This document shows positions 25,509 to 28,937 of a stretch of DNA of 50,593 nt, in pieces (position 1 is the first letter of the stretch; the number at the start of each line of letters is the position of its first letter). The DNA is taken from NCBI RefSeq assembly GCF_024518575.1, contig NZ_JANIHG010000009.1:1-50593 (forward strand), read 5' to 3'. The translations under genes were made by a program, and so were the position numbers. The notes below the pieces were generated by a model. It saw only the letters and a program-made list of their open reading frames with translations, ran no database searches and was not told the origin of the DNA. This DNA is from Methanothrix sp. GTDB taxonomy: Archaea > Halobacteriota > Methanosarcinia > Methanotrichales > Methanotrichaceae.

Positions 25509-26285
25509 TCATGAGTCGCACTGACCGCTGGATTCACTGGCTGTCACGGATGCTCTCCACAGTGCCTCTCCAAGATCCCTGTACATCCTGGAGAGGGCAT
25601 CTCCTGCTGTTATCGCCATGCTTCCCCTCTCTCCGGAGACGACCAGAAGCACATCGCCGGTGTCAGGGATCATCAAGCAGATCCCCTTCTCCTTCCACGG
25701 GTAGATTCTGCGCTCTGCGCCCGGGATATCCCAGGCAGATGTATCTGCGGGACATACAGCTCTGATCGATACACCACGGCCCAGCATGCTTCTGATACCT
25801 TCATCGACATGCAGGAATATGTTGTACAGATCCCCCATCCTCTTGAGCAGAGATGGATTGATTATGAGTATATCCCTCTCCGCTCTTGAGAGCATCTCCA
25901 TAACTTTCTCGTACACCCTGCCTGCTCCCTGATGCACCCAGATCCCCATCTCTGCTTCGCGCTCGGTGCCCTCAGCAGAGTACACCTCCTCCAGCGCGCG
26001 CAGCGCAGTCTCTGCATCGGTCATGAAGCTGCTCTTCAGCCGCTCGAGCGCTGCCGCTGGATCCGTCACCCTGTAACGCATTGGCTTGGAGGGTTGGACT
26101 TCCACTATGCCCCTCATCACAAGCCTTTTCAGAGCGCCATAAACTGCAGGCCTGGGTATCCCCGATATCTGATGGATCTCAGAGGCTATCCCTGCCTTGA
26201 GCCTGGTCAGTGCTGTGTAAACCCTTGCCTCGTACTCTGTGAGCCCGAGGTCGCGCAGAGCTTTGATGGCATTCTTCTCCGACAT
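25509..26285 (-). CDS. TrmB-like transcriptional regulator
   Basis: Archaeal winged-helix regulator of 258 residues. The N-terminal HTH is typical of TrmB (LGLTEYEARVYTALTRLKAG, then IHQISGIPRPAVYGALKRL). A wing and short coiled linker follow, then a PLD-like effector domain with ERDILIINPSL. TrmB relatives bind sugars or other small ligands and act from DNA sites beside their targets. It is divergent from the tetraether-synthase gene across only 53 bp and seems to share one TATA element with it, so control of that gene is the obvious hypothesis. Confidence 0.88.
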   Translation of the reverse strand: MSEKNAIKALRDLGLTEYEARVYTALTRLKAGIASEIHQISGIPRPAVYGALKRLVMRGIVEVQPSKPMRYRVTDPAAALERLKSSFMTDAETALRALEEVYSAEGTEREAEMGIWVHQGAGRVYEKVMEMLSRAERDILIINPSLLKRMGDLYNIFLHVDEGIRSMLGRGVSIRAVCPADTSAWDIPGAERRIYPWKEKGICLMIPDTGDVLLVVSGERGSMAITAGDALSRMYRDLGEALWRASVTASESSGQCDS

Positions 26286-26310
26286 CCTGTACGTATCTCT
26301 GATAGAAGGT

Positions 26311-26318
26311 TTTATATG
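26311..26318. promoter_or_regulatory. TATA element midway between the regulator and tetraether synthase genes
   Basis: TTTATATG, within GTTTTATATG, is the only strong TATA-like element in the 53-bp gap. Its centre is about 25 bp from ATG 26339 on one side and about 29 bp from ATG 26285 on the other, so both genes could be leaderless. Confidence 0.55.
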
Positions 26319-26338
26319 TCTTTCCGTAAAGTAACAGT

Positions 26339-27862
26339 ATGGTCGTTATGACATTAAATACAATAGACAGAGTTGTGGCTTCCGTCTGTCCGGTGTGTCT
26401 CAGGACTTTAAGTGCGCGCATATTCCAGCAGGGGCAGACGGTCATGATTCGGAAGTCCTGTCCGGAGCATGGAGAGTTCGAGGATGTCTATTGGTCGGAT
26501 GCCGATCTTTACAGGAGGTTTGTCAGATACGCTGAGACCGGCAGAGGCATAGAGAACTTCATCACAAAAGGAGACTGCCCGTTCAGCTGTGGCCTGTGTG
26601 ATAACCACAAAACATCAACGCTTCTCGCAAACATAGATGTTACGACTAGATGCAACCTCGCATGCCCGATATGCTTTGCAGATGCATCCCCAAAAAGGGT
26701 CTACGAGCCCACAATGGAGCAGATCGAGAGGATGCTGAAGATCCTGCGGGAGGAGCGGCCTGTCCCATGCCAAGCTGTGCAGTTCTCAGGCGGTGAGCCG
26801 ACTGTACGTGAAGATCTCCCGGAGATAGTGGCTCTCGCCAGGAGCATGGGATTCACGCAGATACAGATCGCCACAAATGGCCTGAGGCTTGCGTCCCATC
26901 CTCATCTGGCGCGACGGCTCTGCGAGGCAGGACTGAGCACTGTCTATCTCCAGTTCGATGGAGTGGATGCAGGTCCGTATATCAAAATGAGGGGGAGGGA
27001 TCTCCTCGGCGTGAAGCTCAGCGCGATAGAGTCCTGCAGGAGAGGGGGACTGAGAAGCGTGGTTCTCGTCCCGACGGTGGCGAAGGGCGTGAACGACTTC
27101 CAGTTAGGTGACATCATCAGATTCGCGAGCCAGAATGTGGATGTCATCCGCGGGGTCAACATGCAGCCCATATCCTTTGCTGGGAGGGTCGAGGAGGCGG
27201 AGCGAAGATCAAATAGAATCACCATACCAGACCTCCTGCGTTCGATCGAGGAGCAGACTGATGGGCAGGTCTCGAGGGAGGATTTCTATCCAGTCCCGTT
27301 CGTAGCCCCGATCTCAAGGGTTGTGGAGGTGCTCACCGAGAGACCTACGTTGATCTTCACAGTCCATCCCTGCTGCGGTGCCGCAACATACGTCTACTGC
27401 GAGGAGGACCGGCTGATACCCATAACCAGGTTCGTGGATGTGGAGGGCCTGATGGAGAGGCTCAAGGATATCCTCCGGGATTACAACGGATCAAAGATAT
27501 CGAAACTCAGGATCCAGGGGGCACTCCTGAAGGATCTCCTCGGGTTTATAGACGAGAGCAGAGCCCCGAAGGATCTGCACATCACAAAGCTCCTGATGAA
27601 TGTTCTGAGGACAGGCACGTTCGACTCCCTGCGGGAGTTCCACTCCAGGAATCTGTTCATAGGCGCCATGCACTTCCAGGATCTCTACAACCTCGATCTC
27701 GAAAGGGTGAGCAGATGCGGTATACATTACGCCACTCCGGATGGCAGGATCATACCGTTCTGCACATACAACACGATCCACAGGAGCGAGGTGGAGGACC
27801 GCTACTCCATCGCGGAGACATGCGCACCTGCACAGCGTGTGGAAGTGCCTCCCGTCACGTAA
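26339..27862 (+). CDS. tes: Radical SAM tetraether lipid synthase (Tes family)
   Basis: Homologue of the MJ0619-type radical SAM enzymes that join the phytanyl chains of archaeol lipids into biphytanyl tetraethers. Seen in the 507 residues: an N-terminal rubredoxin-like metal site with CPVC (17-20) and CPEHG (41-45); a second cysteine group C80, C84, C87; and the radical SAM motif C105-x3-C109-x2-C112 in TRCNLACPICFA. The SAM-binding FSGGEPT follows. Further cysteines in HPCCGAATYVYC and a C-terminal CGIHYATPDGRIIPFCTYN match the extra-cluster region of the family. ATG 26348 is an alternative start. Biochemical assignment rests on family resemblance only. Confidence 0.88.
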   Translation: MVVMTLNTIDRVVASVCPVCLRTLSARIFQQGQTVMIRKSCPEHGEFEDVYWSDADLYRRFVRYAETGRGIENFITKGDCPFSCGLCDNHKTSTLLANIDVTTRCNLACPICFADASPKRVYEPTMEQIERMLKILREERPVPCQAVQFSGGEPTVREDLPEIVALARSMGFTQIQIATNGLRLASHPHLARRLCEAGLSTVYLQFDGVDAGPYIKMRGRDLLGVKLSAIESCRRGGLRSVVLVPTVAKGVNDFQLGDIIRFASQNVDVIRGVNMQPISFAGRVEEAERRSNRITIPDLLRSIEEQTDGQVSREDFYPVPFVAPISRVVEVLTERPTLIFTVHPCCGAATYVYCEEDRLIPITRFVDVEGLMERLKDILRDYNGSKISKLRIQGALLKDLLGFIDESRAPKDLHITKLLMNVLRTGTFDSLREFHSRNLFIGAMHFQDLYNLDLERVSRCGIHYATPDGRIIPFCTYNTIHRSEVEDRYSIAETCAPAQRVEVPPVT

Positions 27863-28001: not shown

Positions 28002-28937
28002 ATGAGATACTCTGTGGAATTGATCTCTCCAGATAGAAAGATCGAGCTCGCCGAGGAGTATGCGGATCAGGTTCTGTATGAGGTGAAGTCTGAGATATAC
28101 GGATGCTGCATAAAGCTTCTCACAGCAATGCGTGATGTGAAGAGCAGGTGGGAGGAGAGCTTCTACTTCATGTCCCAGAGCATCCGCTCTCACGGGCGGA
28201 TGTATGTTGTGAATGACCCAGGCGGGAAGAACCGCGTTATGTACGATCCCCAGTCTAAGACCGCATTTCTTGTGAATTTCGATTACTATGGATGGATAAA
28301 GTCGCTTGCTTTATCGCTCGCTGGAGACATCCTGGAGGATGAGCACGGTATCCACTCGGTGCATGGCGCATGCCTCGATCTAGATGGCAAGGGAATATGC
28401 ATCATCGGAGGCTCCGGCACAGGAAAGACGACTCACACCTACGGCCTTCTCAGGGATCCCAGGGTGCGGGTGGTATCGGACGACTGGTTCTTCGGAAGGA
28501 TCTACGGCAGAGACGTACTGGGCTACGGATCCGAGAAGAACTTCTACATAAGATCTGAGCTCTCCAGCATCTGGAAGGAGTTCTCCTGGCTTGTGGAGAG
28601 GGCTGAGCTCGATTCCATGGGGAGGGGTGTGGTCGACCTCAGGTGGGCCATAGGTAAGGGCAGGATACTCCCTCTCACCACGATACGGCATGTGTTCATA
28701 CTCAAACGGGATCATTCGGACGACCGGATCGCGCGTCTCTCTCCAGAGGATGCCCTCCAGATAGTCGAAAAAAACGGTTACTTCAACCCCCATCTGCTCG
28801 TCGATGGGGATCTCAAGAGGAGGATCCGGAGCGGGTTCTTCAGGGCGATGCTCTCGAGCTCATCTGTATGGGAGGTCAACACCACAGGAACGCCTGAGGA
28901 GACCCAGTCCATGATAAGAGATGCGATTGGCGTTTAG
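28002..28937 (+). CDS. HPr kinase-like P-loop protein
   Basis: Protein of 311 residues whose C-terminal half resembles the HPr kinase/phosphorylase C-terminal fold. HSVHGACLDLDGKGICIIGG leads into the P-loop GGSGTGKT at 136-143, and a Walker-B-like SDDW follows at 159-162. The N-terminal 100 residues are not recognised. Archaea of this type lack the HPr phosphotransferase system, so the substrate must differ; it might phosphorylate a small molecule or another protein (inference). AGGAGG lies just before ATG 28002. It stands alone between the tetraether synthase and AlaX genes. Confidence 0.7.
   Translation: MRYSVELISPDRKIELAEEYADQVLYEVKSEIYGCCIKLLTAMRDVKSRWEESFYFMSQSIRSHGRMYVVNDPGGKNRVMYDPQSKTAFLVNFDYYGWIKSLALSLAGDILEDEHGIHSVHGACLDLDGKGICIIGGSGTGKTTHTYGLLRDPRVRVVSDDWFFGRIYGRDVLGYGSEKNFYIRSELSSIWKEFSWLVERAELDSMGRGVVDLRWAIGKGRILPLTTIRHVFILKRDHSDDRIARLSPEDALQIVEKNGYFNPHLLVDGDLKRRIRSGFFRAMLSSSSVWEVNTTGTPEETQSMIRDAIGV

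Follow-up and report, generated by a model that had tools for sequence, protein, structure and literature searches.

A TrmB-family gene and the tetraether synthase gene of Methanothrix diverge from one predicted TATA element in a pairing that recurs in distant archaea

Whether an archaeal membrane forms a monolayer or a bilayer depends on its tetraether lipids, and GDGTs serve widely as proxies for past climate. The literature that we searched, with subscription papers mostly uncovered, described no regulator of tes, no TrmB protein tied to lipid synthesis and no description of a TrmB-like regulator adjacent to tes. In Saccharolobus islandicus, cold raises tes expression (PMC10465181), a response that shows only that tes expression can follow temperature in an archaeon unrelated to the one studied here.

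TrmB and TrmBL1, the sugar-sensing regulators of Thermococcales, are proteins of ~340 aa in which an N-terminal winged helix-turn-helix (HTH; PF01978) is joined by a long linking helix to a PLD-like domain, and they act locally on a neighbouring sugar transporter. TrmBL2 (PDB 5box and 5bpd) is an abundant archaeal chromatin protein. The best match to the promoter arrangement described below comes from Pyrococcus furiosus, in which BRE-TATA-BRE promoters were confirmed in vitro to fire in both directions from starts 49–50 bp apart, giving mostly antisense non-coding transcripts (PMC6640164).

The window analysed here, a 50,593-nucleotide stretch of Methanothrix DNA, contains a tes gene on the forward strand (26339–27862) and a TrmB-family gene on the reverse strand (25509–26285). 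The two genes diverge across an intergenic region of exactly 53 bp (26286–26338), as the initial annotation had described. Judged from its sequence, the 507-aa product of the forward gene is the tetraether lipid synthase Tes (GDGT-MAS): it passes the NF045702 equivalog cut-off (690 vs 450 bits), matches the solved GDGT-MAS structure 7tol (E = 3e-175), of which it is a radical SAM ortholog, and carries a CNLACPIC segment corresponding to the radical SAM CxxxCxxC motif. Pfam matches to PF04055 (radical SAM) and PF23545 and an N-terminal zinc ribbon complete the assignment.

The divergent gene encodes a 258-aa transcriptional regulator, for which we propose the name TesR. Its PF01978 match is strong (E = 9e-21; 73.9 bits vs a gathering score of 25.6), and it falls below every TrmB/TrmBL equivalog cut-off, with 70 vs 650 bits for TrmBL1, 55 vs 500 for a further model, 47 vs 600 for TrmB and 37 vs 530 for TrmBL2. 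The PF01978 match places the winged-HTH DNA-binding domain at 26058–26258 (−). In an AlphaFold model built from 20 homologues (mean pLDDT of 86) this domain has helices at residues 17–29, 34–41 and 45–57 plus wing strands, and a C-terminal PLD-like α/β domain, a candidate sensor or dimerization domain, lies at approximately 25545–25949 (−). Foldseek searches with this model returned TrmBL2 as the best match (6e-15), then TrmB (9e-11) and then PLD-fold proteins; the C-terminal domain itself matched the TrmB sugar-binding-domain entry 2f5t as well as PLD-fold proteins. The sugar-binding family PF11495 gave no match in a Pfam search of the window regulator and only partial matches in its relatives, covering the first 55–134 of 233 positions. 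The modelled regulator has the PLD-like domain typical of TrmB proteins; its length of 258 aa and the missing PF11495 match indicate that it lacks the sugar-binding unit of TrmB.

The regulator thus has the winged HTH, long linking helix and PLD-like domain of TrmB and TrmBL1 and, like them, would regulate a neighbouring gene set locally. It differs from them in being shorter and in having a lipid enzyme rather than a sugar transporter as its neighbour. TrmBL2 is its closest full-length fold and belongs to the same length class, likewise without a sugar-binding unit; however, the two share ~20% identity in structural alignment, and the window regulator tracks one gene neighbourhood instead of acting as a chromatin protein.

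To describe the promoter region we used a 14-position BRE+TATA matrix trained on 85 upstream sites. These came from 400 kb of G002, a complete genome from within the genus, in which a simple codon model called 335 genes. TATA centres in G002 most often lie 24–29 nt from the start codon, with a mode of 26 nt, and most promoters in this genome therefore look leaderless. Around the gap, the best matches on the two strands have one centre, 26312.5, and cover the same 8 bp (26309–26316; GTTTTATA on one strand, TATAAAAC on the other). The forward site (26303–26316) scores 4.8 and begins with a BRE-like element for Tes (TAGAAG, 26303–26308), while the reverse site (26309–26322) scores 5.1 and begins with a BRE-like element for the regulator (AAGACA, 26317–26322). 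Both scores exceed those of 99.9% of genomic positions (threshold 4.5), whereas the best of the other, unrelated sites around the gap reaches 2.4. One TATA element, with a BRE-like element on either side, one per strand, therefore lies at promoter distance from both genes, 26 nt from the Tes start codon and 27 nt from that of the regulator. The initial annotation had proposed a single central TATA ~25 and 29 bp from the two start codons and possible leaderless transcription of both genes; the single element is borne out by the matrix, the predicted geometry lies near the mode of the organism, and the distances proposed were close to these. The best forward and reverse sites coincide in all six species of the genus, and the best reading of the sequence is a predicted promoter in which one TATA serves two leaderless genes. 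Such divergent architecture is uncommon, though not unique, in G002, where divergent gaps of ≤60 bp were found for 4 of 51 pairs. Apart from the Tes locus, one other pair in this genome apparently has a common TATA, in a 50-bp divergent gap at ~1805806–1805855 of C1; one gene of this unrelated pair encodes a predicted secreted protein, the other an HD-domain-like protein.

The likeness to the P. furiosus promoters is that one TATA is read both ways, and the predicted start-to-start distance of 54 bp in the window compares with 49–50 bp there (PMC6640164). The outcome differs: the window promoter would drive two genes with protein products, one a regulator and the other an enzyme, rather than mostly antisense non-coding transcripts. 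Competition of both genes for one TBP site is plausible; for the bidirectional promoters of E. coli, basal activity was too low for such competition (PMC12825309). The G002-trained matrix transfers poorly to Bathyarchaeia and Hadarchaeota, and we therefore make no claim of a shared TATA for those groups.

Comparison with related genomes, which the initial annotation had put forward as a check, showed the divergence to be conserved, with a gap of exactly 53 bp in six of six species of the genus and ~52 bp in a genome from another Methanothrix genus (G017, g5). Within the gap, conservation is uneven. The 39 Tes-proximal bases (26300–26338) form a strongly conserved core, 35 being invariant in the six-species alignment, compared with 50% of third positions in Tes codons (binomial P = 2e-7, on the assumption that positions are independent), while the 14 regulator-proximal bases are unconserved (6 of 14 invariant). 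Invariance continues from the gap into the start of Tes: across codons 2–14 (26342–26380), 12 of 13 third positions are invariant among the six species, more than in the rest of the gene. As this conserved stretch exceeds the needs of a promoter core, a functional block of ~80–90 bp spanning the gap and early Tes is suggested, and the nearly invariant early codons possibly reflect a downstream operator or a constraint on translation initiation. They include an alternative ATG at 26348 (M4). Since G017 has no start codon at the position of M1, Tes may start at 26348 rather than at 26339, in which case the leader would be ~9 nt. G017 otherwise keeps the divergent arrangement and a shared TATA element within 2 bp, together with the conserved segments TTTATATGTCTTT and, at the BRE-like element of the regulator, AAAGACATATAAA. 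The core is unique in its own genome, where we found no second copy.

A search with the regulator alone returned relatives adjoining Tes in ANME-2, Hadesarchaea and Bathyarchaeota. In a reverse survey, Tes genes and their flanks from Methanosarcinia, Bathyarchaeia and Hadarchaeota were scored for a TrmB-family neighbour. A TrmB-family gene lies divergent from Tes at 52 of 91 loci in Bathyarchaeia, 8 of 23 in Hadarchaeota (9 of 23 when L262, initially misclassified because of an over-long ORF start, is counted) and 7 of 23 in Methanotrichaceae (where the remark on over-long ORFs also applies to G017); the genomes are related and these counts are not phylogenetically independent. Other gene orders occur: tes precedes the regulator at 4 of 5 ANME-2 loci, and the regulator precedes tes at 4 of 47 loci of another Methanosarcinia family (f3). 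No TrmB-family neighbour of Tes was found in families f2, f4, f5 (0/27) or f6 or among the few Asgard and Nitrososphaeria loci, and an adjacent TrmB gene is likewise lacking for 42 of 47 f3 Tes genes and for most other Methanotrichaceae. Since most Tes genes outside the linked groups have no adjacent TrmB gene, the regulator is dispensable for Tes. TrmB genes are rare: in G002, G017 and G205 the Tes neighbour is the single TrmB gene of the whole genome, and in G207, G211, G327 and G335 it is the best-scoring one.

In a tree of 108 regulator sequences, the Tes-linked proteins cluster far more than they do with shuffled labels and fall into two groups, one from Methanosarcinia (SH-aLRT of 99) and a weakly supported one from Bathyarchaeia and Hadarchaeota. 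The Methanosarcinia group contains three gene orders relative to tes, which argues that the pairing is more than inherited order or synteny. Adjacency to Tes therefore recurs beyond close relatives, as expected of a local Tes regulator, and the regulatory link that the initial annotation had offered as conjecture gains support from this recurrence in distant archaeal groups and from the three gene orders.

Other lipid and envelope genes accompany the regulator in some groups. In Hadarchaeota, the carS gene (CDP-archaeol synthase; 197 bits vs a cut-off of 148) follows the regulator, overlapping or closely spaced, at 5 of 9 linked loci, which is wherever carS was found in the available flanking sequence; at L089 (3986–5250), L249, L251, L256 and L258 the regulator and carS form an operon-like unit divergent from tes. 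Among Hadarchaeota that lack the regulator, it is carS that diverges from Tes (L245, L246, L250, L253, L255 and L261). The neighbours of the regulator in ANME-2 and f3 are an HAE3 RND transporter, which carries a sterol-sensing-type domain, and an NPCBM-associated protein, and the regulator stays beside the transporter at loci where Tes is absent (L008, L078, L080 and L082). Tes is thus possibly not the sole or ancestral target of the regulator. L157 (9–5273) and L008 (3–3451) have a common order of RND transporter, NPCBM protein, regulator, DUF1232 and methyltransferase genes; tes lies between the regulator and DUF1232 in L157 and is absent from L008, a gain or loss of tes.

A candidate operator emerged in Hadarchaeota, in which the interval from the Tes TATA box to the start of Tes contains a palindrome (TTCACCCCTTTAAGTGGTGAA and variants; general form TTCACCNCTNNNAGTGGTGAA), the geometry of a repressor site. 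At ≤2 mismatches it is present at 7 of the 9 loci that carry the regulator and 2 of the 12 that lack it (Fisher P = 0.009), figures that are suggestive but partly post hoc as the motif was first noticed in these sequences. Within those Hadarchaeota genomes, the best-scoring site is the one in the Tes gap. In Bathyarchaeia, related sites occur at 15 of 50 linked and 11 of 37 unlinked Tes promoters where ~1 is expected; these counts, like the absence of the palindrome elsewhere, are less post hoc than the Hadarchaeota figures. On the 11 unlinked Bathyarchaeia promoters, and on those of L253 and L255 in Hadarchaeota, where the palindrome stands upstream of tes with no adjacent TrmB gene, a regulator encoded at another place may act in trans.

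An operator common to all groups was rejected, as the palindrome was present in 0 of 91 Tes promoters of f1 (Methanothrix), f3 and f5 (≥12 of 16 positions); the Hadarchaeota motif was not found in G000 and G002 either, and neither a palindrome nor any other operator could be identified in the Methanothrix gap. The recognition helices differ, with RPAVYGAL in the window regulator vs IPYSKIY in the Bathyarchaeia/Hadarchaeota group, so the operator in Methanothrix is expected to be a different one. Three candidates weighed by eye in Methanothrix, AGAARG..CTTTCT around the TATA and, close to the start of Tes, CTGT-N6-ACAG and TAAC-N9-GTTA, were rejected because they are weak and either missing from G017 or no more than chance would yield among short inverted repeats. 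In ANME-2, a similar AAAACAACA-N4-AGTC element stands before the BRE/TATA of both tes and the regulator (L084, 2150–2360 and 3900–3998; L085 likewise), and it was not found upstream of Tes in L100 or L138.

We favour, with somewhat better than even confidence, a regulator-target pair on a bidirectional promoter, in which the regulator controls Tes and itself, most likely as a repressor. In the window lineage both genes would be read in opposite directions from one BRE-TATA-BRE promoter, with transcripts starting at or a few bases from the two start codons. The regulator would bind in or beside the conserved ~90-bp block and thereby control Tes and itself together, probably repressing both until released by a signal, which would plausibly be bound by its PLD-like C-terminal domain. 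The sequence analysis shows the gene identities, the conservation of the gap and its sequence, the coinciding predicted TATA sites and the linkage that recurs across phyla; that the regulator binds at the gap, represses, controls its own gene and responds to a particular signal is inferred. A temperature or lipid-state switch, as the initial annotation had suggested, would be a speculative form of such control. A broader proposal, to which we hold tentatively and with rather less than even confidence, is that dedicated TrmB-like factors beside tes in Methanosarcinia, Bathyarchaeia and Hadarchaeota sense the state of the membrane or of lipid precursors through the PLD-like domain and set tetraether output, and that in thermophilic Methanothrix one bidirectional promoter couples the level of the factor to that of Tes. 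Local regulators of the TrmB type and shared-TATA promoters are known kinds; their recurrent partnership with a tetraether synthase appears to be new. If the proposal is true, tetraether synthesis would have its first known transcriptional controller in this family, and a regulator family with a defined neighbour, together with a Hadarchaeota candidate operator, makes control of Tes directly testable.

The same neighbourhoods admit other explanations. The regulator might mainly control an envelope or lipid-transport set, namely the HAE3 RND exporter and the NPCBM-associated-domain surface protein, with Tes a secondary target that is only sometimes its neighbour. In ANME-2 and f3 the regulator adjoins the RND gene both with and without Tes, and the G033 gene order is that of G106 minus Tes (L008 vs L157). 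Yet no RND gene was found in the examined flanks of Methanothrix, Bathyarchaeia and Hadarchaeota, where the neighbour is Tes, and the second neighbour in Hadarchaeota is carS, a lipid gene; we regard this account as unlikely, though not to be dismissed lightly.

The locus might instead be a plain bidirectional promoter, its TATA common to both genes through promoter symmetry, with any coupling due to competition or co-expression and the regulator acting elsewhere. The shared TATA at the right distance from both starts, the documented archaeal BRE-TATA-BRE promoters (PMC6640164) and the unrelated divergent pair in G002 would all fit, but the TrmB gene beside Tes in other phyla and other gene orders would go unexplained, as would the tendency of the Hadarchaeota palindrome to accompany the regulator, and we consider this account improbable. 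That the two genes are merely coincidental neighbours kept together by slow rearrangement seems very improbable indeed. The genomes are related and within the genus the pair is simply inherited; however, TrmB genes occur at only ~1 per 270 kb in the sampled Bathyarchaeia, where one nevertheless diverges from Tes at 52 of 91 loci, and one regulator group holds three gene orders.

Downstream of tes, the window encodes at 28002–28937 (+) a protein with likeness to the HPr kinase C-terminal P-loop domain below the cut-off (PF07475, 25 vs 33 bits), and a similar protein follows tes in L074.
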